A DNA stretch of 64,000 bases from Linanthus parryae (Eukaryota; Streptophyta; Magnoliopsida; Ericales; Polemoniaceae). Below, one piece after another: positions 24,816 through 57,244 of the stretch. The position numbers and the translations under genes are program-made. The number at the start of each line of letters is the position of its first letter. Position 1 is the stretch's first letter. Under the pieces are notes generated by a model. That model saw nothing but the letters and a program-made list of their open reading frames with translations, searched no databases and was not told the DNA's origin. The stretch lies in the NCBI GenBank assembly GCA_023055425.1, contig JALGPY010000003.1, forward strand, positions 66,200,991 to 66,264,990, in the 5' to 3' direction.

Positions 24816-27424
24816 TCACCTGGACTTCAACTTGCCTGGAAACAGCTTTAGCCTGGCGTTGAAGATCAACACCCTCTGTCCTATCTTGAAATCTGCTGGT
24901 ATGATGTGCTTGTCGTGCCACTCCTTTGTCCTTTCCTTATAGATTTTTTCACTCTCATACGCCATCAATCGAAATTCCTCAAGTTCAAGTAGTGCCTCTT
25001 TCCGCTGCTCACCTGAGAGCTTAGCATCCAAGTTGATCTTCTTCAAGGCCCAGAACGCCTTGTGCTCAAGTTCTACTGGGAGATGACATGACTTCCCGAA
25101 TACTAGCTGATAGGGAGACATGCCCAAAGGGGTCTTGAATGCAGTCCGATAAGCCCATAGATTGTCATCCAGGTGTAGGGAGCAGTCTTTGCGTCCTGAT
25201 TGACTGTCTTTTACAAGATCCCTTTGATCTCTCGGTTAGAGACTTCAGCTTGCCCATTCGACTGCGGATGGTAGGGCAGTGATATCTTATGTGTCTTCAC
25301 CCCATATTTGCTCAAGGCATTGGCAAAGACCCTGTTAACAAAGTGCGTTCCCTCATCACTGATCCCAAACCGCGTAAATATGTTTTTGCGCATGAATCTC
25401 TCAACTGTAGCACCATCGTTCTTCGGAAAAGCCATTGCCTCTACCCACTTAGTCACATAGTCATCATCTAATATGATATAAAGATTACCAAGTAAGGATG
25501 GGAATGGCCCCATGAAATCAATCCCCCAGACATCAAACGACTCCACCTCCAACACGAAATTCTGAGGCATCTCATTTCTGCTGGACATATTGCCGGTTCA
25601 CTGACACCGGTCACACTGGTGCACAAACAGATGGACGTCTTTATGCAATGTAGGCCAAAAGAAACCGCTCTGAAGTACCTTTGCCACTGTGTGTGATTTT
25701 CCGAAGTGACCTCCACAGTTCAACTCGTGGCAGTGTCTGAGAATCTCTAATGTGTCTGGCCCTGATACACACCTTCGCAATACATTGTCGGCTCCCAGAT
25801 TGAACAGATAAGGATCATCCCAGAAGTATTGTCGTGAATTTGCAAAAAATTTCTTCCTCTGGTGGGAAGTCATATCCTTGGGAACAATATTGAGCGCCTT
25901 AAAATTTGCTAAGTCAGCAAACCAAGGCACAACTGCTACCACTATCATATGCTGCTCATCCGGAAAATCCTCTCTGATAGGTACCTCCTCATGCTTCACA
26001 TTCTCTAACCTGGACAAGTGATCCGCCACAAAATTCTCTACTCCTTTCTTGTCCTCGATATCTATATCAAATTCTTGCATCATAAGAACCCACCTGATCA
26101 ATCTCGACTTTGCCTCCTTCTTGGTGAGTAGATACTTGAGTGCAACATGGTCCGTAAAGATTGTCACCTAAGAACCCACAAGATACGGCCGAAACTTGTC
26201 CAATGCAAAAATAATGGCTAACATTTCCTTCTCGGTAGTAGCATAGTTTACATGTGCATTGTTCAAGGTGCGGCTAGCATAATAGATGACATGAGCTATC
26301 TCATCCTTCTGCTGTCCCAGAACTGCTCCCACCGCATAGTCGCTAGCATCACACATGATCTCAAATGGTAGGGTCCAGTTCGGCGTGGTAATGATGGGTG
26401 CACTAATCAGCTTCTTCTTGAGCAGATCGGAAGCTGTCTTGCACTCTTCATTAAAATAAAAAACTGCATCCTACTCAAGTAACCCAGACAAAGGCTTCGT
26501 GATCTTTGAGAAGTCTTTAATGAAGCGTCGATAGAACCCTGCATGTCACAAGAAACTTCTCACCCCTTTGACAAAAGTAGGGTAAGTAAGCTTCTCAATC
26601 ACCTCAATCTTGTCTCTATCCACCTCTAAACCTTTGCTGGAGATCTTGTGCCCCAAAATAATGCCCTCAGTGACCATGAAGAGACACTTCTCCCAGTTGA
26701 GCACTAGGCCAGTGTCAATTCATCTATCCAGAACACGGGTAAGTTGCTGCAAGCTGTCTTTGAACCCGTCACCATACAACGAGAAGTCATCCATGAACAC
26801 CTCAAATTTTTGTTCCATCATGTCGTAGAAGATCGACATCATACACCTTCGAAAAGTAGCAGGTGCATTGCATAACCCGAAAGGCATGCGTCTAAAAGCG
26901 AAAGTCCCATAGGGACATGTGCATGTTGTCTTCTCCTGATCCGCTAGCTCAATGGAAATTTAGTTGTACCCGGAGTACCCAACCAAAAAGCAATAGTGTG
27001 AGTGATGTGCTAGCCTATCAAGCATCTGATTAACAAATGGGAGGGGAAAATGATCCTTCAAAGTGGCATCATTGAGTTTGCGGTAATCCATGCAAACTCT
27101 CCACCCAGTAACAGTACGGGTAGCAATCTGATCACCTTTTTCCCCTTCCACCACAGTAATACCTCCCTTCTTAGGGACACACTGCACCGGGCTAGTCCAT
27201 GTGCTGTCGGAAATCGGGTAGATGATGCATGCTTCCAAACATTTAAGCACCTCTTTATTTACCACTTCCTGCATATGAGGATTGAGGCGGCGCTGGAATT
27301 GAAATACCGGCTTCTTGTCCTCCATGAGCCGGATCTTGTGCTGGAAAACTGTGGGGCTGATCCCCTTGATATCTGCTACGGTCCATCCCATAGCTACTTT
27401 CCGTTCCTGCAACACTTTCAGCAA
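24816..27424 (-). pseudogene. Athila pol (RT, RNase H, integrase), multiply broken
   Basis: Read on the minus strand, RT (MDYRKLNDATLKDHFPLPF; catalytic FMDDF near 26790) is followed by RNase H (IMCDASDYAVGAVLGQ, HVALKYLL). Next come the integrase zinc finger (HCHELNCGGHFG...CDRCQ) and core ([34 protein letters not shown]). Most blocks from 27424 to 25211 share one frame split by several nonsense codons. A frameshift precedes the last block (24816-25127, ending in the integrase C-terminus). The core Asp, Asp and Glu are still readable, but no full product is possible. Confidence 0.9.
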
Positions 27425-27783
27425 TTATTCCTCCTGTTTCCTGTCCAAACACTAAGACACAATAATAGGAAAAGTATCATTAGATCCAATATATAAATAT
27501 TTTAATGTGCAGGTAAAGTTTTCAATTATAAAGTAGGAGCAATATCAAGAGAAGGAATAAGAGTCTTCCTGCTTCCCTCATTAAATAGGGGTAGGGGCTG
27601 GCGCCAATGAGTCTCCACGGCCTGCTCTTTTTCGCTAGAGTCAAGTAAAACGAGCTCCTCATATAGCCGCTCCAACAAAATGTCTTCCTCCTAATCGAGT
27701 GTGTATGCCTCCACACCAAAACACTGCTCACTCACCGCATATGCGGGAAACTTCATAGCTTCAAAGACGTTCAAAGCCACCTT

Positions 27784-29835
27784 CTAATCATTGATCCTTA
27801 TAGTTAACTCTCCGTTAGCCACATCAATGATTGTCCTCCCTGTGGCCAAGAACGGGCGGCCCACGATAAGGGGGACATCATCATCGGCCTCCATGTCTAG
27901 GATCACAAAGTCAGCTGGGAAGATAAGTCCCTCAACTCTCACTAGTACATCTTCCAAGACGCCCCTTGGACGTTTGATAGTGCGGTCTGCCATCTGCAAA
28001 CACATCCTAGTGGGTTTTGGATCTTCCACACCAAGCTGCTCAAATACTGACGTGGGCATCAAATTAATGCTTGCGCCAAGGTCACATAACTCCCTTCCAT
28101 GAAATGCATATCCCAATGTCATAGGAATGATTAAATCCCCCAGATCTTTCATCTTCTTTGGCAACGCCTTTTGCACCACGGCGCTACACTCTTCATTTAG
28201 GGTCACAGTCTCAAAGTCATCCATGCGGCTCCTATTAGAGAGGAGGTCCTTGAGAAACTTTGCGTATTTCGGCATTTGGGAAATGGACTCCGCGAAAGGA
28301 ATATTAATATGCAACTTCTTGAAGATATCCACAAACTTTTTGAAGTGTTTAGCATCCTCTTGGCTTTTCAACCTCTCCGGGTATGGCACACGCATGCTGT
28401 ACTCCTTAGGCTTTTGATTCTCCTCCGACTTCCTACTTGTGTCTTTTGATTGGAGAATCACGGTAGGCACAGGAATTTCATCCAAGAATTTTTCAGTGGC
28501 CTTTGTTGCTTCAGCTCGCGCGTGGGTGGGATATGGAGGGTCCTGAGTGGTGCTCCCACTGCGAGTAGTAATAGCCTTCAACTGCTCAGGTGGAGTAATT
28601 GTGATAGAAGGAAGCATACCAGGTGGAAGTCTATTATTTTGATTGACAATTTGCCCAATCCGCGTCTCATGGCTCTTCATTGTAGCTTCCATAGAGACAA
28701 TCTTGCTCTCCATCCTATCTTGATTAGCAAGCAGTTTCCTCAATAATGCGTTTGTCTCTTGCTCTTCTTGTTGTGGAGCCTGCTGTTGTGGAACCTGTCT
28801 TTGAGCTTGGTATGGAACATTTGGCCTTTGGCCGGGTGCATATAATCCATTGTTTGGATTGGCATAGCTGAAATTGGGGTTACTGCGGTTATTAGGATGA
28901 TAAGTGTTGGACCATTGCTGACCCATGTAGTTCACATCTTCAAATACATCTTCATATCCATGATTTGCATCTGCTACCATCTCTTCCACTGATTTCACCT
29001 GTGCCGATGGATTCATATTGCTGAAAGCCGAAGTCATAACTACCATCTGATGTTCAAATTTCTGTTCCATCATTGACTTAATCTTACTAACTAGTGCCCC
29101 ATCAGATTTCGTGTTCCTACGAGTCTCAGACCTTGTGGACTCACGTTTTTCCACATTGTTCAACAGGTCTTGGCATCTTTGTACTCCTAAACCCATGAAG
29201 TTTCCTTGAGCCATCATATCCAACTCATTTGCCGTCTCCCTGTCTAATCTATTATAGAAATAGTGCAACAGTTTGTACCATGGCTCCCCATGAGTAGGGC
29301 ATCTGCGAAGAAGCTGGTTGAATTTCGTCCAAGTGTCCCCCAAAGAATCATCTTCTTGCTGAGTGAACTTTGTGATGTCTGCCATTCGCTGTGCCACCTT
29401 TGATGGTGGAAGATATTTCCTGAGAAGCTCTTGGAAACATTCTGACCATGTAGAGATACACCCTGTTGGAAGCTCCATGAGCCATGTCTTTGCTTTCCTC
29501 GATAACGAAAAGGCAATGAGCATCAGTTTTACCATATCATCTGGCACCCTCTGATCATGAATTGTAGAGGTAATCTGGTTGAAGTTGAGTAGATGGGCAT
29601 TTAGATCATCCCCGGGAGCTCCAGTGAACAAACATTCATCGCGAACCATATTGATCAGCGGCTAGCGCAATTCAAAATGAGATGCGTTGATTTGTGGCAT
29701 GACCGTTGTTGGCAGGTACCCATCCAGTGTGGTCCTAAAGTAGTCTACGAAAGGAGGCTCATCAGCTTCAGCATTGTTGACTTGTTCTGCGCCATTCTGA
29801 CCATTATCGTTCCGATTCCCCCATTATTTCTATTT
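27784..29835 (-). pseudogene. Athila gag-protease, main part
   Basis: A 621-codon open frame (27784-29649) includes the gag domain (FSLSRKAKTWLMELP, TWTKFNQLLRRCPTHG, FYNRLDRETANELDMMAQG). A Gln/Asn-rich linker follows, then an aspartic protease with LCDLGASINLMP and PLIVGRPFLATG. The frame continues upstream past an in-frame TAG into 29650-29835. It resumes at 40321 beyond Tat-1. Gag forms the particle and protease cleaves the polyprotein. The part downstream of the stop is unusually intact compared with pol. Confidence 0.9.
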
Positions 29836-29840
29836 ACACC

Positions 29841-30467
29841 TGTAGATAGTGCTTTCTGAGCTGACAGATCTTGGCCACGTGGCAACCATCCAGCACACCA
29901 TATTGTGCTCCACACACACTGGATCACCAGCCGAGCTGATCCATGTGGGGGCTGCGAGACAGAGCCCTCGCATACCACTGCACGGGACTTGTAGGGACTT
30001 TGTGGTTTGGAGGCTAGAGTAAGCCCTGTGGAGTGCGAGCCAAGCCCGCACGCGGTCTTTAGTAACTGTTTTGAGAGATTTATGGCACGAGCTCCATAAA
30101 CCCGGTCAATCCGGTCAAACCCGGTTAACCTCGTAACGGTTCCGGTATTCGCGCACCACGTGCTGTAACGGTCCCTATGTACTCGGACGAACGTGCCGTT
30201 ATGGTTAAGCTAATTAAGCCGCCATCAATGGGCGCATTAACCACACTACAACGGTCACGTTCTCTGCTATATATAGGACGTTACCCTTTCCATACAAAGG
30301 AGAACACACTGGCCATACGCGGAAGCTCTGCCAAACCTCTGTCTCTCTCTCAGACATTGCTACTGCCTTACTCTCTCCCTACACACAACCCCACTCTTCC
30401 TGTGCGATCTCTGATCCTCTACATACGGTGTACACGGAGGTCTCCTCGCCGGAATCTCTTGTGCACA
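29841..30467 (+). repeat. Tat-1 5' LTR
   Basis: It starts TGTAGATAGTGC and ends CTTGTGCACA, 627 bp. The same length is seen in the other two copies in the window. Confidence 0.96.
30267..30277 (+). promoter_or_regulatory. TATA box in the Tat-1 5' LTR
   Basis: CTATATATAGG lies about 190 bp before the LTR end, a fitting position for the element promoter. It is conserved in the 3' LTR. Confidence 0.7.
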
Positions 30468-30468
30468 T

Positions 30469-30488
30469 TTTGGTGAACCCGACGTGAA
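30469..30488 (+). other. Tat-1 primer binding site
   Basis: TTTGGTGAACCCGACGTGAA begins one or two bases after the LTR. It is the same at Tat-2 (53474 on). Confidence 0.75.
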
Positions 30489-30507
30489 CTTACCAACAAA
30501 AGCAACC

Positions 30508-30942
30508 ATGTCTCAGGAGGATGATATCAGCAACAGATCGCCTTCCACCGAAACCGCCTCGGGAGGGGAGACCCGTCGTACTCCTACCACTCCCGGCGAG
30601 ACACCGACGCTAGAGTCTTTGGACGCCACTGTTCAAAGTCAGGCGAAAGCTCTCAAAGCCCAATCCGTGCAGCTAGAACGGATCTTGGCCGTTCTGGGCA
30701 CCCTTGCACCAAATCCTTCATCAGCCACCGCCGTCTCTCAAGGAGGAGGAGGCCCTACTGCTTCGGGACCGGGAGTGTCAACCACGCCTCCCAACCCTAA
30801 CCTCCAGACTCCACCGGCGATTGCGCAGCCTCCTTCGATCCAGGGGTCAACAGATCAGATGTTGCCTCTCACTGCTCACACTCCTCAGCCCTCGGCTTCG
30901 ATACGTAGTACAAGAAAACCTGCTTTGGCGAAGAGGTCATGA
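30508..30942 (+). pseudogene. Tat-1 gag N-terminal fragment
   Basis: The ATG at 30508 opens a Pro/Thr/Ser-rich gag N-terminus close to that of Tat-2. At about 30898 it joins integrase sequence in another frame and stops after 15 codons. The capsid domain, protease, RT and both RNase H domains are gone. Confidence 0.92.
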
Positions 30943-32035
30943 GCGCAACTTGCTGCGATGTCTAGACGGCAGAGAAGCACAAGAAGTCATGGACCTTTCT
31001 CATCAAGTGGAACACCAAGGAGGTGCGAAATTATGCAGGCAGCTCCTCTCAATTGGATATTTCTGGCCCACGATGGAGGCCGATTTCCGCACCAAAGTAC
31101 GACGCTGCCAGGAGTGTCAATTCAAAGGAAACCTAGTGCACGCTCCCGCCGTGGATCTACATGCACTAGGGACGCCATGGCCATTTCACACATGGGCTCT
31201 AGACTTCATCGGTCCCATCCGACCAACGTCACACGGGAATCACTTTATTCTCACTGCAACTGAGCTGTTCACCAAATGGGTGGAGGCAGTACCACTCAAG
31301 ACGGCAAATGCGCTAGCTGTGGTCAACTTCATTCAGGAAAACATCATATACAGGTTCGGAATCCCAAACACCATTCTTTCAGATAACGGTACTCCCTTTG
31401 TTAATCGCAAGGTAGCTACGAAATTAGCGGAGTACAGTATCAGGCAGATATGTTCTACCCCTTATTACCCGAAGGGGAACGGACAAGCCAAAGCGACCAA
31501 CAAAACGCTGTTGAGGATTTTGAGCAAGATGGTCGCAGACGACCACAAGAAGTGGGCCGACTCCCTAAGCATGGCTCTATGGGCGTACCGAACTTCTCCA
31601 AGGAAACCCACGGGGGCCTCGCCATTTCTACTATGCTATGGGGCCGAAGCTGTGGTACCTGCGGAGGTAAGAGTCAATTCGGCAAGGCTAGCCTTCCACG
31701 CACTCTACGAAAATCAACGTGATCATGACTTAGTCTTGCTGGAGGAAAAGCGAGAACAAGCCAAAAGGACCAACAAGCGAAATCAAGAAAGGATTGCTCG
31801 CGCTTACAATAAGACGGTCCAGCGAAGAGATTTCGCAGTTGGAGACTTGGTCCTGCACGCATCTGACCACTGCATGCGAGAAGCGACTCACCCAAAGTTC
31901 GCAGCTAATTGGGAAGGACCCTTCGAAGTCACAGAAGTCTTCGACAGTGGCTACTGCAGCATACGAAGGTTGCACGGCACAACCTCAACCCCGAGTTCAG
32001 TCAACATGCGCTGGATTAAGAAGTACTATCCCTGA
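30899..32035 (+). pseudogene. Tat-1 integrase, catalytic Glu replaced by Lys
   Basis: From the deletion junction the frame encodes the zinc finger (DLSHQVEHQGG...CQEC) and the core. The core shows WALDFIGPI, ILSDNGTPFVN and, 35 residues later, GNGQAKATNK, where Tat-2 has GNGQAEATNK. The third residue of the D,D-35-E triad is thus Lys (codon AAA at 31490-31492). A C-terminal domain ends at the stop at 32035. Integrase joins element DNA to the chromosome; this copy should be inactive and also lacks a start in frame. Confidence 0.9.
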
Positions 32036-32249
32036 CTTCTCTCATTTCATGCGTTTTATTATAACGTCGCTTAATGTCTTGTGTGGCTACGATTTACGCA
32101 ATCTCCTCTCCCATATGAGAGGATTGTAATCCCATCTCTCCCATATGAGAGCGTTATAATAAAGAAATTCTCCCAAATGAGAAACTTCATACTTCTAGAT
32201 GTCAATTTTACTTCATTTTAGTTTGTTATAACTGTTAACAATGGGTTAT

Positions 32250-33190
32250 CCGCTACAATAGCAATCTGCGAAATGCGATCTTAATTGATCATCTAAGCCT
32301 ATCTGTTACGATAGCAGCCTATGCAAATGCGATCTTAATTGATCATCTAAGCCTATCTGTTACGATAGCAGCCTATGCAAATGCGATCTTAATTGATCAT
32401 CTAAGCCTATCTGTTACGATAGCAGCCTATGCAAATGCGATCTTAATTGATCATCTAATCCTATCTGTTACGATAGCAGCCTATGCAAATGCGATCTTAA
32501 TTGATCATCTAAGCCTATCTGTTACGATAGCAGCCTATGCAAATGCGATCTTAATTGATCATCTAAGCCTATCTGTTACGATAGCAGCCTATGCAAATGC
32601 GATCTTAATTGATCATTCAAGCCTATCTGTCACGATAGAAGCCTATGCAAATGCGATCTTAATTGATCATTCAAGCCTATCTGCCACGATAGCAGCCTAT
32701 GCAAATGCGATCTTAATTGATCATTCAAGCCTATCTGCCACGATAGCAGCCTATGCAAACGCGATCTTAATTGATCATCTAAGCCTATCTGTTACGATAG
32801 CAGCCTATGCAAACGCGATCTTAATTGATCATCTAAGCCTATCTGTTACGATAGCAGCCTATGCAAATGCGATCTTAATTGATCATTCAAGCCTATCTGT
32901 CACGATAGCAGCCTATGCAAATGCGATCTTAATTGATCTACTAAAGCGTATCTGTTACGATAGCAACTCATACGAAAAACGATCTTAATTGATCTTCTAA
33001 AGCCTATATGCGACGATAGCAACTCATGCGAAAAAACGATCTTAATTGATCCAGTAAAGCCTATCTGCCATGATAGCAACTCGCGCGAAGAACGATCTTA
33101 ATTGATCTACTAAAGACTATCTGCTACGATAGCAATATTGTGAAAATGATCTTAAGTGATCTACAAAGGTCTATCTGATATGATAGCACG
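32250..33190. repeat. 54-bp tandem repeat array of Tat-1
   Basis: About 17 units of GATCTTAATTGATCATCTAA followed by a CTATC-N6-GATAG hairpin and a CAGCCTATGCAAAT spacer. Central units are almost identical; the outer ones are diverged. It lies between the end of pol and the 3' end of the antisense gene. Confidence 0.95.
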
Positions 33191-33861
33191 TGCATCAAAG
33201 GCTAATCACAAGCCCATCTGCCAAGATGGCACAGCTGCGAAAATATGATCTCGAACGATCTAGTGAAACATCTGCGAATTCATATGGCAGATAGCAAATG
33301 CGAAACCATTACATAGCATAATGCAAGGCGAAATATGCCGAAACGCATGCGAAATTGTATTTTGTTGCAATAGCACAGCAAATAATACAAAAGCTATTTA
33401 TCATTATGAGTCGGAAAGACTTACAATTTATCTGTCTAGATAGCAGCTTACAAGCGAAAAAGCTCAAATCTAACTACACATCCAACATGGCTTACAATAC
33501 ATTCGAAAAGTAGCTGACAAGTCAGCAGAGACACACTACGGGAATCCTAACTGAAAGGGATGAACCCACCGGTTCTAACACCGGCTATGTAATACACAGA
33601 TCTACGGCCAAAGATCTATAGCAAAAGGGATGCTGCTGCAAAGAGATCAACTCGTCATTTGCTACGTCCCTAGCGGCGAGATCTGGGTAACGGTACGTCC
33701 AAGACCCCAAGAGGTGACAAAAGCCTCTGTCTGATCAAGATAGGCACCGGAGGAACCTCCTGTTCCGACATATGCTGTCCTGCAAAACAGGCGAAGCAGT
33801 CATTCCTCTGGTGATGGGTTCCTTGTCATGATTGACAAGCGCATTGACAAGCCTCCTGAGT
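33191..33861. other. Tat-1 spacer after the repeat array
   Basis: Non-coding as far as I can see. It contains degenerate GCGAAATATGC-like sequence and AAAGATCTATAGCAAAAGG. It is conserved in Tat-2 at 61021-61703. Confidence 0.6.
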
Positions 33862-34236
33862 TCAAGAACGAAGAGGCAAGAAATCCTCCTCCAGGGATGC
33901 TAGAGGAGAATTCCGCCGTTCATTACGAGACGGTAGCACGGTCACTTCGGCGGTAAACCTCACCGGGAGGCGGCCGGAAACATGACCTGCACACATAATA
34001 CACGAAGAAAATTCTTCGAACACACATGAGATATCATCTCCATCTTCTTTACGATGGTTATAAAGAGCAATAAGCCTCATAAAGTGGATATTGGAAACTG
34101 TTTCTATAGCACAAAGCGCAAACTCAAGATTCACAACTTGAAGTTGCCATGAATCAACGAAAAACAAGCGTTGAAGCCAGCAGTCGTAAAGACTCACGGC
34201 AAAGCACATTTTTGGGATGAAGAACCCAAATGGCAA
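33862..34236 (-). CDS. Small antisense ORF of the Tat family, 124 codons
   Basis: The minus-strand frame begins MPFGFFIPKMCFAV and ends EEDFLPLRS. Tat-2 has an ORF of equal length at 61704-62078 with about 15 amino-acid differences. It lies downstream of the large antisense gene, so it may be an extra exon or 3' UTR. I recognise no domain. The many replacements argue against strong constraint. Confidence 0.3.
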   Translation of the reverse strand: MPFGFFIPKMCFAVSLYDCWLQRLFFVDSWQLQVVNLEFALCAIETVSNIHFMRLIALYNHRKEDGDDISCVFEEFSSCIMCAGHVSGRLPVRFTAEVTVLPSRNERRNSPLASLEEDFLPLRS

Positions 34237-34657
34237 AGACAGGGTTTATATAGACCCTGGGGAGACTCTTCAGTTGCCAAAGATGAGTCAGCAGAATTTG
34301 AAAAGAGGGTAAGGCCAATCACTTACGCCTTGAAAAGCGGTAACGATCAATTACCCTACTAAAGGCTACGACGATTCAGTTGCGTATCCTAATAAATGAC
34401 GGATAGTCATGATTCGGATGGACTTCCCAACGAAAGCGTGCTTATCTGCCGAGAAATTAGCGCGAAAATCAAGCAAAGTATCAATTGCTGATGTCATAAT
34501 TGGATATGCACAGAGATATCCAATCAAATCCCGAAAACGGCAAAACGGGCAAGTTGATTCTTATTGTTAAAAAAAAAGGGAGAAACCCTAGCAACATTAC
34601 ATTAATGTTTCAAACATTACATTACTGTTCCAGCCATTTCCTTGCTGTTTTCCAAAT

Positions 34658-37600
34658 TCAAAAATTCAAAAGCAAATTCTTGATCAAGGAGTCATGGGGT
34701 GCGAACTGATGGCTCAGCTTCTCTACCTGCTCCACTTCTTGCTTCAATTGCTCGCACTTGGCATTCATATCATGATAGAGCTTCATAGCTTCTTCAGCCT
34801 TTTGCTTCTGCTGCTCCACCTTCTGCTTTTCAACTGCGAGGTTCTGGTGGCCGAGCTTCAAAGTTACGGCTGCGCGAATCAGAGTGACTCTTTTCATAAG
34901 AAATCTAAAACCCAGCCTGCCTTGAACTTTGGTCAAGAGATTTTGGCACATGCCACAAAGCAATTCGGCACTCTGGACAGAAATGGTCTCAGGTGTGGCC
35001 GCAGACAGCTGCTCCAAAATCCAAATGGCTTCGGTAAGAAACAGCCTCCTGTCAAAGGGCCCTATCTCCAGAGATCTTGCAAACGATCGGGGGTAGGTGA
35101 GGCGCATCCGAACTAGCCAGTCCACATCAGTTTGCTTCAAACCTGAAGCAATGTTAAAGCCAAGTTATGCTATCAAACTCGACAATGCACATGCGAAGAT
35201 GCAAACAGTGAATCATTACTTACCGGTTCCTTCGAGAATCTCACGAAGAGAAGGAATGCGCATTACTGGAGTCGTTGAAGACTGCCCTTGCTCCATAGTT
35301 CTCCTGTCAGCCGCGAGCTCTAACTCCTCATAGTTAGAAGGAAGAGTGTAGGCCACACCAGCTGCGACTGCATTCCCAACCTGCGAGCCCCAAAAGCTCC
35401 ACGCAGGAATAGGTGCCTCCGACTCAGTCACCGCCGGAGGCGAAGTGACAGTCGAGGTCGCTTGGCGGGGGACATTCTCAGATGCGGAAGCATCGGCAGT
35501 ACTTGTCCTTACTTCCTCAGCACCAGCATGGGCATCTTCATCCATTAGCACAGCACCAGCTTCAGCATCCTCGGAAAGTTCGATGATGTCCTCGAGAGGC
35601 TCACCTGCGTGATCAGTAGCTGCGACGGGCTTCTCAGTATGGGGGCTCGGAATCGGAACATAGGACGCAGAAGGCTGACTTCTTTGCTCCGACGCATGTT
35701 CCTCAACATTGCCTGCGATACAAAATGCGATGGTATGAGGTAACTCGCATTAAATGATATTTTGCTATCTTTACTTAAGCTAAGAGCAAGCACCTCCACG
35801 CGAAGGTGGGATTGAAGTCTCTTCGTCATACACTAAAGACGTGGAACCATGCCCTATTAGTGTGTCCTCATTAAGCAGGTCCTTAAAATGAGCATGACCT
35901 GGGATGCGAATAAACCAGTCATGATTCTGTCTCAATTTGCTAAGGCCTGGTACATGCGTATCGCTCAAATGATTACCTGAAGGTTCTCCGCACTTGTCTA
36001 CTAGCCAGCGGCGAATGTCAGCTTTTGACACGCCATGCTTTAACGCACCCACAATAACATCTCTATAAGTTACTGCGAGATTGAAGATCTCACCTTTATC
36101 GCCGCCTGCGATCTCTTCGAAGTCTGCTTGGGCTTGCTCCAGGACTGCTGCATCCTCTTCTTGAACCTCATCTTCCTCCTCCGCATGAGGAGTTACTACT
36201 TCGGGGAGTACATCTTCCTCGTCAACTGGACGCACTAATTCGTCAACATGCTGCTCTTCGAGGCTCCGCTGTCTCACACACTCGAGTTCCTCCTCTTCCC
36301 GCTGCCTTCTTCTCTCAGCAGCTTCCGCGGCTGTCTTCCGGGACTCAGCAAGAACGTCCTCGCTTATGGGATCGTCTGGAATGCCAGAATGGGTATCTCT
36401 CTTTTGTCTCTTGGCCAAAAGGCCACCGATGATCTCATCATCATCATCATCTGCGAAGATATGATTGGTTTAGGAAAGAATTGCAAAAGAATTATGATAA
36501 TGGGAAAGGAAATGCGACGGAGGTACCTCCTGATTCTTCCTCATGAATCACTACTGTTCTTTCTTCTTCCTCATCACTTTCTCTGGGCTCCTGCCTCTCT
36601 CCTTCTTCCTCCTGGTTGAATGGAACGAAAGTCTCGACTGCGAGCTCTTTCCGCACTTTGCTGGGCATGCGACCTTTGCCTTTATCCTAGACAGAAAGGG
36701 ACCTCGCCGGAGGAGAAGTTGGAGCACTTCTAGGGGAAGAAATTGAAATTCCCTTTTGCCTGGGTCTCTTCACTCTCGGCGCCGCAGTCGCTGGAGGGGA
36801 CGGATCATCTCCGGGAGGAGACGAGGCTGGAGCATTGTCTATCAGCGAGTCAGCAAAAGCATTCATGACTGCGCGAATCTTGGTTTCGACCTCAGGGTCC
36901 ATCCTCCATGCTAGCAGAAACGGCTGCTTTTGTCTTCTGGTGGCAACAATGGTGTTAACCAATGACTTGGAGCGATCACCAGATGCGAATCTCCGCACAT
37001 GACACTACAGCAAACAGTACAGAATAAAGGCATCAGCATAAGAAAATCAAGAAGCTTAACGCATGCGGGAAAAAAGTGCTTACCTTAGCAAATGCCTGGC
37101 TATATCTGAAGACATGCGTGTCGCCCTTCTTAACTGCGGCGATCTTTTCCTTCAAAATGACGTCAGGGCACAAATGGTTCTCATGATCCAGCAACGAGTA
37201 GCAACCATACTCAGACTCGCTCAGACTGCAATTGGGGCGAAACGGGAAAGAGTTTCTCTTGATCAAAGGAGCTCTACTTGGCTGCGCGGCCGACTGTGTC
37301 TCAATCCTCGTTTGCTGGGCGACCCAGTATGCGAGCCAATTCTGAGAACACCCACCCTCGCGGGTCCCTGCAGGCTGCTCAAAGGGAAGATTGTTCATGA
37401 ATACTGTCTTGCACTCCTTTGTTAGCAAGCGCTTATAGCAACCTCTGATAATGGACTGGGGCCAGATTGATGGTGCCACTGCATCAAAGCCGAACTGGGG
37501 AGAAACTCGAGTGGGGTCAACATCCACGGTAATTCTCTCATACCTTGGCGCGAGCTCACCAATATGCTCTGCGAGGGCAGGAAAAGAACCTCGTAGACAC

Positions 37601-38964
37601 CAGCAAAAGAACTCGCGATAGCGCTCATGGAAATGCGATCCCTCTTCGAAGAGGAGCTCTTCTGAGAAGACAACACCCTTAGAGGGGTACAGCTTCGGAA
37701 ACCATCGCACGTTCTCAACACGTGTGGCATAGGGCCTGGCAGTAAACTCTTTCCGTTTGTCGCATATCAAGCTCCAAACGCACTTGGTGTTGTTCGCTCC
37801 GAACCACCTCGCAGCTCTGCCGCTGTTGCGCTCCTCCGTCTCGCCTGGGGGACACCACTTGTCGGGTTTGAGAGCAGTTGGGGCATAGGATGGCCACCGC
37901 TCGAAGACCCACATTGTCAAAAAGGAGATATTGACAAAAGTCAGTACATCGAGGCGGCCACGCGACTCTTTCATGGCCAAAACCAGCTGATCAAGCCTGT
38001 AATACAGCGTGCCCAAGACCAAGGGTCCGAGTGCGACTCTCTGGCCAAGGGCGAGCCTCACAGCAAGTGGCAGAACATGGTAAAAGACCCCATCATGTGG
38101 GTGACCGTCGATCAAATATCTCGACAGCCAAGCACAGAGGAAAGCACAAAGGGTCAAGTGATAGCCTTTACCCTCCACATAATTCTCGGCCTCTGGGTTC
38201 TCACTCAGAAGCTTCTTAGTGATGCTGTTGTTCGCATAGTCTCGAAAGAAGTACTGCAACCATTTGTTCCAGGTATTCTTCGCAGACGTATCAACTAACT
38301 GCCAGTTTGGAAGGGCTTTCGTAGTAGTCCACCGGGTGGAGATTTTCTTTACCTCTGCCAGGCATTCCTCCATCTGCGTGTACAAGGCAATCTCCGCAGC
38401 CGTCCTCAAAGGACTCAAAGGGTCTACCTCACCCATGGGAGAAAGATCGTACAACATCTGCACGTCCTCGAGTGTAGGGGCAGCCTCGAACTCAGCAAAA
38501 TGGAATGTGTGAGTCGCAGGTGAGTAGCGGGAAAGAAGGTCTAGAAGCATGGACTGGTCCAGCTTCACGGCAGCACCCTTCATAGCACGAACAGCGAAGT
38601 ATACGCCGGCTTCATCAAGAGTCGCGGCATGATTGGTCAACACGTGGTCAATCCACTCATCCATGTAGTCCAATTTCTGGACAAAAGCTTGGGTAGAAAT
38701 CGCAGTATAGGGGAAATACCCATTCTCGATTCCCAATCGAACCACATCCTCGGAGCCAATTAACTCGAGTAAGGCTGAGTTAACTGGGCGAGTCAGTGTT
38801 AGCAATCCCTCAATTGGGACAGGAGCAGGCATTCTCTTCGCCTTAACCCTCGCATGGTAGAAATCTTGGCCACCTAAATAGGGGGCTTTTCGCCACAAAG
38901 CCTGCGGAAGATCGGGGATCTCTTCGTCCTCCTTGTTGGGTTTGGTTCCTTTTGTCTTGGCCAT
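34658..38964 (-). CDS. Antisense five-exon plant mobile domain gene in Tat-1
   Basis: The exons are 37084-38964, 36527-37004, 35794-36450, 35224-35712 and 34658-35142. The introns (79, 76, 81 and 81 bp) are GT-AG and phases fit, giving 1,329 codons. Exon 1 encodes a plant mobile domain (PF10536-like): HFAEFEAAPTLEDVQMLYDL, then LCAFLCAWLSRYLIDG and FPLAVRLA-type VLPLAVRLALGQ. Exons 2-3 are acidic and low-complexity with an Arg/Glu coiled coil, and include a conserved block (ALKHGVSKADIRRWLVDKCG). Exon 5 is helical, ending in a Gln/Lys/Glu coiled coil. A TAG at 36687-36689 interrupts exon 2 after 733 codons. Host proteins with this domain (MAIN, MAIL1) act in the nucleus in development and transposon silencing; a role here is inference. 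Confidence 0.8.
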
Positions 38965-39688
38965 TCCTGCGGAAGAGAAAGAAAAAGGGGGGAGAAATAT
39001 GCTACTTCAGTTTGAATTTCGAGAATCAAGATCTACAGAAAGAAAGATGAACAGTTTCTGGTATCAATTTCAGAAATTAGAGGGTTGCATTATCAGGAGA
39101 TTTCAAAACCCTATCCAAGGTCCTTATTATTGAGGGATCAAGCCGCAATTGGGTCCAAAGCTTGGAACTTCTTCACAAGTTTCAACAGATTATATGGGTT
39201 TACAGATTCAACGCAGTTCAAGGCATACACTGGTATTTTAAATCGAAATTGAACAAGGCCAACCTTGCTTCCGCAAAGCTTGCTTGGATATGCACAGTTG
39301 AAGAAGACGATTTGCAGTTTTGAACTGATGATTGATTATCTGAATCTGCTCTCGAAGATCTCCGGGTACCATTCACTTTAAGAGAAAGAAGTGATGCTTT
39401 GCAGCAGTGGATACAAAGTACTTATCCAAAAACAATGAAGGGTTGCGTCCTTTCAGTAGTCGAATCGCAACCGTCACCGTCGAATCGCGCAATCACAGGA
39501 CAAGCTGACGTCACGCCTAAAACCCTAGAAGCCAGACGGCACGACTCTAGGGGTTTTAGGTCATAATGGCACGCACGGGGGCTGAACTTACCTGTATTTG
39601 AATTGGTGTGTGGCGGCAACGCGTATGTTGGTTTCCGCGCATGGAAGTCTATACAGCTATGAGTCTTCACGCGCAGAAAGGGGGCTAA
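38965..39688. other. Tat-1 region upstream of the antisense gene
   Basis: It would hold the antisense 5' UTR and promoter. On the plus strand it ends in the polypurine tract AGAAAGGGGGCTAA at about 39675-39688. No other ORF is supported. Confidence 0.55.
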
Positions 39689-40315
39689 TGTAGATAGTGC
39701 TTTCTGAGCTGACAGATCTTGGCCACGTGGCAACCATCCAGCACACCATATTGTGCTCCACACACACTGGATCACCAGCCGAGCTGATCCATGTGGGGGC
39801 TGCGAGACAGAGCCCTCGCATACCACTGCACGGGACTTGTAGGGACTTTGTGGTTTGGAGGCTAGAGTAAGCCCTGTGGCGTGCGAGCCAAGGCCGCACG
39901 CGGCCTTTAGTAACTGTTTTGAGAGATTTATGGCACGAGCTCCATAAACCCGGTCAATCCGGTCAAACCCGGTCAACCTCGTAACGGTTCCAGTATTCGC
40001 GCACCACGTGCTGTAACGGTCCCTATGTACTCGGACGAACGTGCCGTTATGGTTAAGCTAATTAAGCCGCCATCAATGGGCGCATTAACCACACTACAAC
40101 GGTCACGTTCTCTTCTATATATAGGACGTTACCCTTTCCATACAAAGGAGAACACACTGGCCATACGCGGAAGCTCTGCCAAACCTCTGTCTCTCTCTCA
40201 GACATTGCTACTGCCTTACTCTCTCCCTACACACAACCCCACTCTTCCTGTGCGATCTCTGATCCTCTACATACGGTGTACACGGAGGTCTCCTCGCCGG
40301 AATCTCTTGTGCACA
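39689..40315 (+). repeat. Tat-1 3' LTR
   Basis: 627 bp. By eye it differs from the 5' LTR at about six positions, all in the first two thirds. Confidence 0.96.
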
Positions 40316-40320
40316 ACACC

Positions 40321-42192: not shown

Positions 42193-43580
42193 TTACTCAG
42201 TGACTACTTCCTTGACTTGTGTTTTCAAGGCTTTGAAACTGGTTTTCAAGATCTTGAAATCACTATCAGTTTTCTTCCGAGAGATTTCAAGATTCTGATT
42301 CAGACAAACAAGTTGTAAGTTCTCTTTTGCTTTCTCATGAACCTTTTCTTTCAAAACTCTAATCTCATTCAGATAATCTTCTTCATTTAAAAGCATTGTT
42401 CTAAGATAATCTGAAAGAGCTTCTTTTGGTTTTGAAATCAAACAGTTTACCATTACCTCAATGTTCTTCTCAGAACTTTCATCATGCTTGGCCATGAAGC
42501 ATAGGTTGTCATGTTCTTCTTCAGATTTAGAGTCACTTGAGATATCTGAATCACTCCATGAAGCTATCATAGATTTCTTTCTTATGTCATGGTCTTTCTT
42601 CTGAAAGTTCATGCTTTTCTTGTGTGGACAGTCTCTTATCAAATGTCCTGCATCACCACACTCAAAGAAGTTCATGACTCTGGATTTATTTTGTGATGAA
42701 GACTTACCTTTGTAGTCCTTGCTACTGGATGATCTGTGTCTTTCTCTGTTGAAGTCCTTGTTTCCAAAGTTTTTCTTCATCCTGAGAATTCTGGTCAATG
42801 ATTTGGAAATTAATGCAAATGGATCTTCATCATCATCTTCTGTTCAAGGCTTTGAATTTTTTCATTCTCTTTGGCCTTGAGTGCTAAGTTCTTGAAACCT
42901 TCAGGTAGCTCTCCATCAGCCTCATTCATGGATATTTCATGTGTTAGGATCTTCCCTTGTAGATCATCAAGTTGTAGTGATGAGAGATCTTGAGCTTCTT
43001 CAATGACTGTTGTCTTTGGTTCCCAATTAGCCCTTGGAAGACTTCTTAGTATCTTCCTCACTTTTTGTTCATTAGAAATATGCTTTTCCAATGAATTAAG
43101 GTTGTTGACAATGTCTGTGAACCTCTTGAACATCTCTCTGATTGACTCATCTGCATTCATCTTGAATAACTCATATTGCCTGAGACAGATGTTGATTTTG
43201 GTTTGCTTGAATTGACTGGTTCCTTCAAATGTCACCACAAGCTTATCCCAGATCTCTTTGGCAGTCTTGCAGTCTGAAATCCAGTTAAATTCATCTGTAC
43301 TCAAAGCACAATACAAGATGTTATTATCTTTGTAATTCTTAAAAAAATGTTCTAATTCAGAAGAGGAGAGCGAGTCTTCAGATTTGGGAGTTTTGATCCC
43401 ATCTTTTTCTGTAAAGAAAGTGTGAGGTCCATTCTGAATAATGATCCAAAGCTATATGTCTTGATCAATGATGAACATTTTCATCAGGGCTTTCCAGTGA
43501 GCAAAGTTTTCTCCACAAAATATAGGAGGTCTGCTAGAAACTCTTCCCTGTGAGAAACCACCATCACCTGCAGTACTCAT
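42193..43580 (-). pseudogene. Copia-C gag (UBN2 type) with zinc knuckle
   Basis: ATG at 43580 (MSTAGDGGFSQGRVSSRPPI) opens a Copia gag. The UBN2-type domain (AKEIWDKLVVTFEGTSQFKQ) follows, then a zinc knuckle reading FFECGDAGHLIRDC, in which the first Cys is replaced by Phe. A C-terminal coiled coil comes last. Gag binds element RNA and forms the particle. An in-frame stop lies near residue 42 and a frame change near 42800. A gag with knuckle followed by a long coiled coil suggests the SIRE/Maximus group. Confidence 0.8.
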
Positions 43581-43616
43581 GATCACCATATGGTTAGATC
43601 TTATACAGTGATACAA

Positions 43617-43629
43617 GCTCTGATACCAA
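43617..43629 (-). other. Copia-C primer binding site
   Basis: Minus-strand TTGGTATCAGAGC, complementary to initiator tRNA-Met, lies directly after the LTR. Confidence 0.9.
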
Positions 43630-43630
43630 T

Positions 43631-44926
43631 TGAAAGGGGAGTATGCAGATAGATATGCAACACATATACTCTAGAAGGGGGGGGGGGTTGAATAGAGTAT
43701 GCCAACTTTTTGCAAATTAGTGGAGCAGAAGAGTTTTTATACAAAGCAGTTAAGTTCAAGGCCTTGAAATCAGTTTCAAGCCTTTGGAATGAAAAACAAT
43801 TGAAATGAAACAGACAAGTATTTTTCAAGGTCTCGAAAAGAATTTCAAACCCTTGAAAACCGACAAGTTTGAATGCTGCAAAAACTAAGTATGAAAATGA
43901 ACTGTAAATGCAAGAGACAAGTGATTTATAGAGTTCAATCCACTTTGACCTACGTCTCTACCTCATGGATCTTCTCCCTGCAGGGTTTTCAAATCAATTC
44001 TTATTAATCAAAAGCTAAGCCCTAGATCTCAAGCACAGAGAGTTGCTTTACTCTGTTACAGCTTGTGGTCCTCTCTAACCTATCTAGTACCTGCTCTAGC
44101 AAACTGGTGAACTAAGAATTCTCTGTTTTTCAAGTTGAACAATCCTTGAGAATGAAATGAAGAAGTATTACAAGAATGATCTACAAATAAAGCACAATAA
44201 AGAAGAAAACTAAAGGGTAGAACTGCAGTGAAAAATGCAGTGATCTTCTGTGAGTTGGATTGTGAGAGTGATGAACATCTTTGATGCTTGTCAATCCAGA
44301 AATGTGTATCTCTTTTTTCCCATTGAATGTCCTGTCTTGTTGCTTTATAATGAGCTCCATTTATACTGTTTGAAGCTCTGCAAATCTTCCCAGATTTTCA
44401 GCAACAACTTCCTATTTTGTAGGCCATAAACTTTGACTCACTTAACAGCCTTCTCCAACGGATAGTTGATCACAATATTCAGAGATATTGTTGTGATCTT
44501 GTCTTTAAAAAAATTGAGAAGTTGTCATAAGTCTTTGATTGATCACAAAATCATCATCTCTTATTGTTTCCTTCCCTGCAAAAGCCAGATTAGGAAACCA
44601 ATCCTGCATATTTAGGAAATAAAATTTCCCTGCAAAACTAAGTCAAACTGATGGATTAAAACATGTTAGATATATCCAAACAATTTTTCTTTCATCATCA
44701 AATAATAACACATCAAGCACAGTGGTGATAGAGATAAAATCAGATCAGAAGAGTTGAGAAAAACTCCCCCTTAGAACATGCATACATGTCAGACAGTTTC
44801 AAGGCTTTGACTTCTGGTTCAAGGCCTTGAAATAGCTCCTGTGAAACCTGATTTAAGACTTTGAAAACTGGTTCAAGGCCTTGAAATAACTAAGTATTTA
44901 AAGTCCATGAAACCTGTGACCTTACA
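43631..44926 (-). repeat. Copia-C 5' LTR
   Basis: About 1.3 kb, TG...CA in plus-strand reading. It contains at least three copies of the palindrome TTCAAGGCCTTGAA (about 43754, 44818 and 44872) plus degenerate ones. Confidence 0.8.
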
Positions 44927-45185
44927 CTTGCTTCCAAAGCTCGTTTCCATCTCCCGCATGATCCTCCAAGCCCTATTTTCCTGCGAATCACAACAAGAAA
45001 ACACAACCCGCGATCATATCACAATAAAAGCTCAAAATATTACTAGAAACGCCCGGATTTATCAATTAAAGCTCACGAACTCGTGTTATCAAATTTTAGC
45101 ATAATTTACTCAAAATACGACAAATTCTCCATGTTGAGCACGCAAAACATAGTAAAATAACTCCGAAAATGGAGTTATCAATGTT

Positions 45186-47285
45186 CCATCATCGGATTTG
45201 TGTTTTGTGGTTCTTGAATTTCTTCAAGTTCTACAGTCCTCCCACTTGCTTCTTTAGAGACGAACTCTCTTTCTAGAAACACGCAGATCCAAGCTACAAA
45301 CACTTTGTTCTGGATTGTATTATAGAAATAATATCCTTTTGTTTCCTTAGGATATCCCACAAACTTACACTTATCCGATTTGGGTCCGAGTTTGTCTGTT
45401 TGTAAATGCTTTAAATAGACATCGCAACCCCAAATCTTCACGAACGATACTATGGGACGCTTCCCAGTCCATATCTCGTATTGTGTCTTTATGAATGACT
45501 TAGACGGAACACGGTTATTCGTGAAAGCTGCATTCAATAGAGCATGTCCCCAAAACGATATTGGGAGATCCGTTTGACACATCATAGATCGAACCATATC
45601 CAGTAGGGTTCGATTCCTCCTCTCGGACACGCATTCCATTATGGCGTTCCAGGTGGAGTGAGTTGGGATACTATCCCACACTCTCTAAGATACTCGTCAA
45701 ACTCTTGGCTCAAGTATTCTCCTCCATGATCCGATCGTATAGCCTTAATAATTTTTCCAAGCTCATTCTCTACTTCATTCTTGAATTCCTTGAACAATTC
45801 AAAGGAATCGGATTTGGCCTTCATAAGGTACACAAATCCATATCTAGTGAAGTCATCAGTAAACGTAATGAAGTAGGTGTAACCGCCCCTGGCTGGCATG
45901 GGAAAGTATGAGTTCCAGTAACTCACTAGTCCTCTCACATTTCTTATTGAAAGGGGACTTTGTCATTTTTCCCAATAAACAAGACTCACATGTCTCATAT
46001 GATTCCAAATCAAATGAGTCTAGGAATCTATCCTTATGGAGTCTAGATATGCGTTTCTCATTTATATGGCCTAAACGACAGTGCCACAGATAAGTAGGAT
46101 TTAAATCATTAGTTTTAATCTTCTTGGTATTTATGTTATAGATGGCATTATTTAGATCAAGAATATACAATCCATTAGACAAAGGCACACTACAATAGTG
46201 CATACTATCAAAATTAATGGAGCAACACTTGTCCTTATTGAAATAGAAAAACCTTTCTTGTCCAAACAAGAAATATAAATAATGTTTCTGCTCATAGCAG
46301 GCACATAATAGCAACTGTCTAATTCTAAAATAAGCCCTGTAGGAAGAGATAACTCATACATGCCTATAGCTAATGCAGGAACTCTTGCTCCATTCCCGAC
46401 GCACAAGTCTATCTCTCCTTTAGCAAATCTTCTACTTTTTTCAAATCCTTCACATTTCGACAAATGTGAGATCCACATCCAGTATCCAATACCCAAGATG
46501 AAGAAATAAAAATATTGATATCTACAACAAAAATACCTGGTGGTGGTGGAATCACTATTCCAAGCTTTTATCCTCCAAATATTTAGAGCAATTCCTCTTC
46601 CACTGACCCGACTGGCTACAGTAGTGACAATCACACTTAGCCACACCCCAGTAGGTTTTAAGGCTTCCTTGGATTTTGCAACTTTCTTGCGCATTCCTTT
46701 GGAAGTAGAGGAAACTCCCTTGACCTTCCTTTTATTGACCATCAGTATGGCCTTGCCTTTTCCTTTATTGATGCTTTGTTCAGCTGTCCTTAGCATGTCC
46801 AGCAAGTCTGGCAGATCTTTGTTGATCTCATTCATGTTATAGTTCATGATGAACTGGTTCTAACTATCAGGAAACGATTGAAAGATGAGATCTGTTGCCA
46901 ACTCTTGGCCGAATGGGAAGCCTAAACTCTCGAGGTTATCCGATCATACGAAGAACATGAGGCCTGACTGGGTTCCCTTTTGCAATATTTCTCTTGAACA
47001 GTGCTTTGGACACCTCATACCGCTCATGCCTTGCCTGTTCTTGAAACAACTGTTTCAAGTGTTCGATCATATCGTAGGCTTCCATGTTCTCATGCTGCTT
47101 CTGGAGCTCAGAGGTCATGGTGAAAAGCATGAGACAAGTCACATCATTATAATCATCCACATGTTTATGATGTGCTCTCATGGCAGCCAGAACAGTGTCA
47201 TCCCGAGGTGGTTCTGGAATAGGATTGTCTAAGACGTACAATTTCTTTTCTTGCTTAAGACGATCCTTAAGTTTCTGTACCATTC
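45186..47285 (-). pseudogene. Copia-1 gag, protease and integrase part
   Basis: From the 5' side it shows gag (46936-47285, LVYDMIEHLKQLF-like), a degraded protease, the pre-integrase zinc region (YLWHCRLGHINEKRI...CESCLLGK) and the integrase core. Core motifs are FITFTDDFTRYG, AIRSDHGGEYL and ERRNRTLLDMVRSMM. Several frame changes break it (near 46850, 46310, 45940 and 45680). The C-terminal end (GPKSDKCKFVGYPKETKGY) runs up to the Athila target site and continues at 17947. Integrase would insert the element DNA; this copy cannot make it. Confidence 0.88.
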
Positions 47286-52845: not shown

Positions 52846-53472
52846 TGTAGATAGTGCTTTCTGAGCTGGCAGATCTTGGCCACGTGGCAACCATCCAGCA
52901 CACCATATTGTGCTCCACACACACTGGATCACCAGCCGAGCTGATCCATGTGGGGGCTGCGAGACAGAGCCCTCGCATACCACTGCACGGGACTTGTAGG
53001 GACTTTGTGGTTTGGAGGCTAGAGTAAGCCCTGTCGCGTGCGAGCCAAGCCCGCGCGCGACCTTTAGTAACTGTTTTGAGAGATTTATGGCACGAGCTCC
53101 ATAAACCCGGTCAATCCGGTCAAACCCGGTCAACCTCGTAACGGTTCCGGTATTCGCGCACCACGTGCTGTAACGGTCCCTATATACTCGGACGAACGTG
53201 CCGTTATGGTTAAGCTAATTAAGCCGCCATTAATGGGCGCATTAACCACACTACAACGGTCATGTTCTCCAGTATATATAGATCGTCAACCTTTCCATAC
53301 AAAGAAGAACACACCTGCCATACGCGGAAGCTCTGCCAAACCTCTGTCTCTCTCTCAGACATTGCTACTGCCTTACTCTCTCCCTACACACAACCCCTCT
53401 CTTCCTGTGCGATCCTTGATCCACTACATACGGTGTACACGGAGGTCTCCCTTCCGGAATCTCTTGTGCACA
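52846..53472 (+). repeat. Tat-2 5' LTR
   Basis: 627 bp, with the same ends as the Tat-1 LTRs and a TATA box (TATATATAG) near 53273-53281. Confidence 0.95.
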
Positions 53473-53473
53473 T

Positions 53474-53493
53474 TTTGGTGAACCCGACGTGAA
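53474..53493 (+). other. Tat-2 primer binding site
   Basis: TTTGGTGAACCCGACGTGAA, identical to that of Tat-1. Confidence 0.75.
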
Positions 53494-53512
53494 CTTACCA
53501 ACAAAAGCAACC

Positions 53513-56125: not shown

Positions 56126-57244
56126 AGGTGCGCGGGGATGTCCTCACGCGGGCATGGGGATATCCCTGGGAAAATCAATCAAATCGAGCAAATTGCGCTG
56201 ACAGAAGAACCAACACAGGGCGCGCCAGACGAGAAACTCAAAGAAGCACCTGAATGCATGGAAGACAGGCCGAGACCACAAAAGCAAGAGCTAAAGGAAG
56301 TGTTCCTCAGCCCGAACGAGGAAAAGAAAAGGCCAGTCTTTCTAAGTGCGGACCTCACAAGCGAAGAGGAGCAAGGACTGCTACAACTCCTAACTGAATA
56401 CAAGGATGTGTTCGCATGGGAGTACGACGAAATGCCAGGCCTAGATACAAGCATCACCATGCACCGTTTAGACATTATCCCAGGGTCTAAACCGGTAAAG
56501 CAGAGTACGAGGAGCTTCAGACCGGAGCTTAACGTGAAAATCAAGCAGGAGATTGTCAAACTCCTGGATGCCAAATTCATAGAGCCGAATCATCATCCCA
56601 CATGGCTGGCCAATATTGTGCCAGTAGTGAAAAAGAACGGACAGCTCCGCATCTGCGTGGACTTCCGAGATCTCAATCGCTTCTGCCCCAAGGACGATTT
56701 CCCACTGCCTAACATCGATTTGCTTATCGATTCAACAGCGGGCCACCGCATGTTCAGTTTCATGGACGGCTTCAGCGGATACAATCAAATCAAGATGGAT
56801 CCCGAAGATGCGCGGAAAACTGCATTCATCACTCCGGTGGGGGTGTTCAATTACACTGTAATGCCATTCGGTCTCAAAAATGCGGGTGCAACCTATCAGC
56901 GGGCCATGATGGCTCTATTTCATGACATGATGCATAAAGAAGTGGAATACTATGTGGATGACTTGGTTGTCAAATCCAAGCACGAAGCAGATCACCTCGC
57001 AGATCTACGAAAGGTGTTCAATAGATGCAGATGTTTTCAACTGAAAATGAATCCCATGAAGTGCGCGTTCGGGGTAACATCAGGGAAATTCTTGGGATGT
57101 GTGGTTCATCGCCAAGGGATCGAGCCTGATCCTGCGAAAGTATCAGCTATCACCAGCATGACACCACCCCATAACCAGAGCACCTTGAAAACATTCTTGG
57201 GAAAGCTATCATATCTGCGAAGATTCATCCCAGCAATTGCATAA
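56126..57244 (+). CDS. Tat-2 reverse transcriptase frame
   Basis: It is in the same phase as gag-protease, one TGA later; the first ATG is 56138. After an acidic linker come the RT motifs: PTWLANIVPVVKKNGQLRIC, VDFRDLNRFCPKDDFPLP, FMDGFSGYNQIKM, MPFGLKNAGATYQR and the catalytic YYVDDLVVK. It stops at TAA (57242-57244) in what should be the RT connection (RRFIPAIA then ITCCFSALLKK). The TAA is probably a single nonsense mutation, since the phase continues. RT would copy the element RNA inside particles. Confidence 0.92.
   Translation, partial: RCAGMSSRGHGDIPGKINQIEQIALTEEPTQGAPDEKLKEAPECMEDRPRPQKQELKEVFLSPNEEKKRPVFLSADLTSEEEQGLLQLLTEYKDVFAWEYDEMPGLDTSITMHRLDIIPGSKPVKQSTRSFRPELNVKIKQEIVKLLDAKFIEPNHHPTWLANIVPVVKKNGQLRICVDFRDLNRFCPKDDFPLPNIDLLIDSTAGHRMFSFMDGFSGYNQIKMDPEDARKTAFITPVGVFNYTVMPFGLKNAGATYQRAMMALFHDMMHKEVEYYVDDLVVKSKHEADHLADLRKVFNRCRCFQLKMNPMKCAFGVTSGKFLGCVVHRQGIEPDPAKVSAITSMTPPHNQSTLKTFLGKLSYLRRFIPAIA

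Follow-up and report, generated by a model that had tools for sequence, protein, structure and literature searches.

A probable spliced and selected antisense gene in a Tat-clade LTR retrotransposon family of Linanthus parryae

The window analysed here, a 64,000-nucleotide stretch of the Linanthus parryae genome (C46:66200991-66264990; GC content 43.4%), contains a long terminal repeat (LTR) retrotransposon at positions 29841-40315, hereafter element 1. On the minus strand of this element, between its integrase and its 3' LTR, lies a gene with a plant mobile domain (PMD). The LTRs of element 1 (29841-30467 and 39689-40315, plus strand) are 627 bp long, differ at 6 of 627 sites and show the general features of LTR elements, namely TG..CA termini and a 5-bp target site duplication (ACACC, at 29836-29840 and 40316-40320). 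The sense-strand integrase occupies 30905-32032 (PF00665 and PF17921) within an open reading frame (ORF) at 30704-32035, and an array of 54-bp tandem repeats (32163-33056, plus strand) separates it from the antisense gene. A second copy of the element, copy 2, lies at 52846-64000 on the plus strand. It encodes gag and protease (53489-56125), reverse transcriptase (RT; 56138-57244), and RNase H (RH), a second RNase H (aRH) and integrase (57356-59857), the domain order being RT, RT_RNaseH, RVT_3, Integrase_H2C2 and rve. Comparison of both copies showed that element 1 lacks the stretch from gag to RT present in copy 2. The antisense gene of copy 2 has its end at approximately 62501, extends past the window edge and continues in locus L031. 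Searches for further copies and relatives covered 1.51 Gb of genome sequence.

The coordinates and counts claimed for the gene in a first-pass annotation of this stretch were reproduced. Five minus-strand blocks (38964-37084, 37004-36527, 36450-35794, 35712-35224 and 35142-34658), separated by GT-AG introns of 79, 76, 81 and 81 nt (37005-37083, phase 0; 36451-36526, 35713-35793 and 35143-35223, all phase 1), form 1,329 codons with a single in-frame TAG at codon 733 (36687-36689). The 627 codons of exon 1 carry the mobile domain that had been assigned to it, with residues 127-499 matching the PF10536 profile at E 1.1e-27 (97.6 bits, against a curated score of 34.9). The product of the last exon is rich in K, Q and E and is probably a coiled coil. 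When exon 1 was held fixed and the remainder of the sequence shuffled, none of 150 dinucleotide shuffles gave a comparable path, defined as one with at most two stops and up to four introns; in the real sequence a path exists only at four introns and one stop. The introns are also richer in T than the exons (33-46% vs 20-25%).

The third block probably conceals one further intron (35976-35899, phase 1), which would divide it into coding exon 3 (35977-36450) and coding exon 4 (35794-35898) and make five-block exons 4 and 5 into coding exons 5 and 6. This stretch is 78 nt long in the window copy and copy 2, and 76, 76, 76, 76, 77 and 79 nt long in six diverged relatives. In the alignment of these eight copies, which has indels inside the stretch, the donor GT is present in seven and the acceptor AG in all eight, while the 30 covered rows of the window family and copy 2 show GT in 30 and AG in 29. 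Because none of the six relatives' lengths is a multiple of three and GT and AG are largely kept, the gene probably comprises 1,303 codons in six coding exons, with the last four introns all in phase 1. Codon periodicity is flat over 35970-35851, that is, to some 50 nt past the stretch. Two observations count against the additional intron: an in-frame stop within the stretch occurs in none of the 30 window-family rows, and copies 1 and 2 do not differ over the second half of the stretch. Given that all 30 rows are free of stops, its removal may be optional in the window family. The originally annotated exons hold as blocks and introns that recur in the family and in diverged loci, but their number is probably six rather than five.

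A pyrimidine tract and AG lie immediately 5' of the ATG (38965-39003, minus strand), with the AG found in 29 of 30 rows and the arrangement present in the six diverged loci shown. This may be the acceptor of a 5' leader intron. Read on the plus strand, the same tract is purine-rich (38969-39003) and could be an internal polypurine tract for reverse transcription.

Selection on the frame was assessed between the genes of element 1 (copy 1) and copy 2, a pair not picked by similarity. The ratios of non-synonymous to synonymous divergence (dN/dS) for five-block exons 1 to 5 were 0.089, 0.275, 0.184 (a value that includes the 78-nt putative intron), 0.353 and 0.192, and 0.155 overall. The same method gave 0.07 for the integrase and 0.48-0.62 for non-coding spacer in the three minus-strand frames. 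For coding exon 5, the predicted frame had the lowest ratio of the three frames on the minus strand. Within the part of the gene that lies in the window in both copies, the two later introns carry 45 differences over 162 sites (17/81 and 28/81) and the three exon parts diverge by 8.8-13.5%, and these two introns are the only ones that evolve clearly faster than the exons between copies 1 and 2. A family sample was also compiled from the 30 top-ranking loci by exon-1 protein similarity, out of 70 that were scored (17,413 first-look candidates); L009 and L021 were left out past their rearranged 3' parts in the analyses of diversity, splice-site permutation, read-through and periodicity. Diversity across the 30 loci was 0.0266, 0.0226 and 0.0706 at codon positions 1, 2 and 3, and 0.0712 in the introns, on a par with third positions; it was lower in the LTR and flanks (0.0285 to 0.0393) than in the introns. 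As a separate observation, the segment 35412-35353 within an antisense exon shows unusually few third-position changes, perhaps reflecting an overlapping signal.

The splice sites of the five-block introns are largely retained within the family. GT and AG were found in 30/31 and 31/31 rows for intron 1, 26/27 and 25/27 for intron 2 (sequence inspection gave AG in 28 of 30 family copies), 30/30 and 29/30 for intron 3, and 20/20 each for intron 4, where 20 rows were available; rows with gaps at the intron ends were left out (4 of 31 for intron 2 and 1 of 31 for intron 3). Altogether, 5 of 425 splice dinucleotide cells were changed; for the rest of the intron cells the count was 329 of 7,982 (p 0.0255 by permutation). 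Reading through introns 1 to 4 meets a stop in 27/31, 31/31, 30/30 and 19/19 copies, respectively.

Searching with the PMD gene of another locus, L065, returned 70 matches, of which eight diverged loci were compared with the window gene. All five blocks are present and in order in seven of them, with exon-1 identities of approximately 50-89% (in one locus as two overlapping pieces); the eighth (L074) matched in exon 1 only, at 38% identity. Introns occupy mostly the same places in these loci, the readable sites being GT 7/7 and AG 6/6 for intron 1, GT 4/4 and AG 6/6 for intron 2, GT 6/6 and AG 5/6 for five-block intron 3 (L069 being ambiguous), and GT 7/7 and AG 6/7 for five-block intron 4; L068 was left out of the readings for the two middle introns. 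The first-pass annotation had named decay of frames and splice sites at the neutral rate as the result that would speak against the gene, and no such decay was seen: the frames are constrained, splice cells change less often than the rest of the introns, and the sites recur in diverged loci. The same data bear on a narrower reading, in which the gene is confined to exon 1 and the blocks after it are separate genes or ORFs that arose by chance. Exon 1 is under by far the strongest constraint, five-block exon 4 has a dN/dS of 0.353, and 4 of 31 copies show no stop when intron 1 is read through, all of which would fit. However, downstream of exon 1 the predicted frame is under constraint, the exons there keep their order in 7 of 8 diverged loci and their boundaries with the introns are conserved, and we regard the narrower reading as improbable.

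The integrase check beside the diverged loci covered L077 and L068. In L077, an integrase with 97.6% protein identity to that of copy 2 lies beyond the gene on the opposite strand. This identity had raised the idea of separate histories for pol and the antisense gene, which was dropped, the synonymous divergence of the integrase being 0.34-0.35.

With exon 1 of the window gene as query, all 70 matches scored (of 17,413 first-look candidates, window copy included) were at least 97% identical. More distant relatives were placed in a tree with 12 other PMD loci taken from at least 127 genome matches. In this tree L065 (C57:122938352-122940280) joins the window PMD and copy 2, at 35% identity and with support of 100/99 and a warning of long branches. 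L065 as query found itself once, then a broken relative at 48% identity, and then many places at 29-37%. The 22 kb examined around it gave no gag, RT or integrase match. This region does contain short repeats, including a 201-bp pair at 79% identity with one member on either side of the gene, which we read as a small inverted-repeat element rather than an LTR because one member is self-complementary. L065 appears to carry a 78-nt intron directly after its PMD exon, again a phase 0 intron that follows AAG, and to end in a helical exon. Homology of the last exons was weak (shuffle p 0.027; p 0.254 for the non-coiled half) and was rejected. L065 is a single-copy, seemingly intron-bearing PMD gene and may be either a domesticated copy or the source of the retrotransposon gene.

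These relationships allow the suggestion that an intron-bearing host PMD gene was recently captured as genomic DNA and rides as a passenger rather than as a gene of the element, since the nearest of the 12 loci compared is just such a single-copy, apparently intron-bearing gene. Against it stand the 70 near-identical matches, the sharing of the gene by loci with only 50% exon-1 identity, and an exon-1 dN/dS near that of the integrase; recent capture is, in our assessment, very improbable, even more so than a gene confined to exon 1.

A different Tat-type element in the same genome (L051/L064, C46:90449400-90462000) has a single-exon PMD ORF of 963 aa, antisense and beyond the integrase; antisense PMD genes with and without introns therefore occur in one genome. 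Homology between the last exon of the window gene and the C-terminus of this ORF was not supported. The window PMD is 25-27% identical to those of five loci (L052-L056) at high-scoring or clustered sites of the same genome. Among the matches listed, large PMD clusters lie at C57:126.3-127.7 Mb, C46:154.9-155.9 Mb and C2:29.2-29.9 Mb. Beyond this genome, a protein database search with exon 1 scored 7,994 candidates, none at E ≤0.001, and a PDB search with exon 1 gave none at E up to 1. A scan of viral contigs found one stretch fitting the pattern and none that codes for a relative.

The gene is not complete in element 1 itself, contrary to what had first been claimed: the TAG at codon 733 is present, and the element lacks gag to RT. 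The TAG is private to this copy, with a stop in codons 726-739 in none of 30 other copies. Among 19 full-length family loci, six have no internal stop or frame-breaking indel (seven if the additional intron is excluded), splice sites being left out of the scoring, so uninterrupted copies do exist.

Considered together, these results suggest a real, spliced and selected accessory gene of a Tat-clade LTR retrotransposon family, antisense between integrase and 3' LTR, to which we assign a probability of roughly 0.85. This reading draws on the exon model and its shuffle null, the PMD match, dN/dS, diversity by codon position, splice-site conservation and exon order in diverged loci, and also on the lengths of the putative intron inside the third block, the RH-aRH-integrase order, the integrase antisense to the gene in L077 and the antisense PMD ORF of L051/L064.

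Several points weigh against it. A genome search for spliced retrocopies, which covered junction 1 at up to three mismatches and had no unspliced control count, returned none. Splice-site conservation within the family, taken alone, is modest (p 0.0255), and between copies 1 and 2 the first two introns differ at 8/73 and 8/75 sites, which does not exceed the divergence of exons 1 and 2 as a whole (201/1,881 and 50/478). One opposite-strand frame is equally low in dN/dS in five-block exons 4 and 5 (0.349 and 0.144); it mirrors third positions, and has five stops in each of these exons. Choosing the family loci by their exon-1 protein match tends to lower the apparent dN of exon 1. Beside L068, the most diverged locus, the adjoining 5.25 kb gave no integrase. 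Finally, an AlphaFold model of exon 1 alone had a mean confidence score (pLDDT) of 34.4 and was discarded.

On this reading, the antisense gene would have a promoter of its own close to the 3' LTR, in keeping with the independent transcription proposed in the first-pass annotation, and the transcript would be spliced to an mRNA of approximately 1,300 codons. The encoded protein would have a PMD at its N-terminus and a helical tail at its C-terminus. Elements that replicate through RNA are normally expected to lose their introns. We propose, as the first-pass annotation did, that those of the antisense gene persist because the genomic RNA is of the other strand, which fits the data; the splicing machinery would leave them in the template, and they would thus pass through retrotransposition.

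The last and least certain step is a possible action of the protein in trans, with chromatin or silencing as its target within the nucleus. Transposon silencing is described as requiring the host PMD proteins MAIN and MAIL1 (PMC5418596, PMC7156037), and a role like theirs is a hypothesis by analogy. On the same analogy we tentatively suggest, with less than even confidence, that the protein benefits the element, most likely by mimicking or competing with MAIN/MAIL1-type proteins. The involvement of MAIN and MAIL1 in silencing might instead suggest that the protein restrains its own element, a form of copy-number control kept because it reduces harm to the host; this would be a functional alternative inside the same gene model, and we hold it to be somewhat less probable than the mimic. 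The need for host MAIN and MAIL1 in silencing is the reason that a silencing-blunting mimic is our first choice and self-restraint our second. A third option is that the antisense transcript acts as RNA on the genomic RNA, via double-stranded RNA, with the protein secondary. Such a role has been suggested for antisense ORFs (PMC7264820). The protein-level constraint is clear and makes this unlikely as the primary function, although it is compatible with an additional RNA role.

Genes domesticated from retrotransposons are expected to lack introns, a rule that an antisense, intron-bearing gene under selection breaks. Such a gene offers a natural test of intron passage through an RNA intermediate, and makes the origin of MAIN/MAIL silencing proteins testable via shared intron positions; surveys limited to long single ORFs may understate antisense genes. 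It is conceivable, if doubtful as a general statement, that retrotransposons carry multi-intron genes over the long term antisense to their genomic RNA and that some intron-bearing host PMD genes are domesticated copies that retained their introns.

The remainder of the window contains features that we record as side observations. A small antisense ORF at 33865-34245 has a dN/dS of 0.705 between copies 1 and 2 and is given no gene status. The spacer at 33200-33860 and the LTRs show less divergence between the copies than synonymous sites do, which may reflect cis constraint or homogenisation. Remnants of other LTR retrotransposons lie on the minus strand at 25598-29649 (gag domain 27784-29649) and 42193-46847, the latter reading as copia-like.

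On its domain order the family is placed in the Tat clade of Ty3/gypsy, in line with the antisense position in a Tat element first annotated for the gene. An aRH between RH and integrase, described as diagnostic of Ogre and Retand, the Tat elements of angiosperms (PMC6317226), is present in copy 2, and over 160 residues the RT shares 55.6% identity with that of another aRH-bearing element of the genome. As in Retand, there is an antisense ORF in the region between pol and the 3' LTR. Transposase_28 (PF04195) was found neither in the exon pieces nor in the small antisense ORF scanned, and the element is not filed as Retand for that reason. As in Ogre, a PMD occurs in an extra ORF. The Ogre primer binding site is given as tRNA-Arg (PMC9289625); the stretch after the 5' LTR of element 1 contains TGGTGAACCCGACG, to which no tRNA is assigned.

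Antisense ORFs and PMDs in Tat elements are known; of a multi-intron antisense gene under selection we found no report in the literature searched, a body that excludes most subscription papers. A 2020 review calls for the study of antisense and spliced transcripts (PMC7264820), and a 2025 review describes plant LTR retrotransposons as generally intronless, with exceptions such as Ogre and EVADE (PMC12786077). A close parallel is Retand aORF-3R, which is likewise antisense between pol and the 3' LTR (PMC11963269). In that account, 97% of the Retand clusters with recent activity have ORFs of this kind bearing TRP28, and tandem repeats occur in the region in roughly half; the ORFs are reported as ORFs, mostly with Transposase_28, whereas the window gene combines a PMD with introns. 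For the PMD itself, a frequency of 57% among Ogre elements is reported (PMC6317226), and Gypsy elements with PMD-A clades are already in print (PMC5418596). However, these extra ORFs were predicted as ORFs of at least 250 codons, with no intron-bearing model in the accessible part of the report (PMC6317226).

Maize Grande gene23 is similar as an antisense accessory gene with its own promoter and a nuclear product (reviewed in PMC7264820), but it encodes a different protein, and the likeness is drawn from the review's description alone. HBZ of a human retrovirus is a further parallel, albeit an unrelated protein in an unrelated host. It lies near the 3' LTR and is spliced, with fewer introns than the window gene. 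Like Grande gene23, HBZ is an antisense accessory gene, and its product is nuclear and regulatory (named in PMC11963269). MAIN and MAIL1 (PMD-C) share the plant mobile domain and offer the precedent for a role in silencing (PMC5418596), but they are genes of the host.

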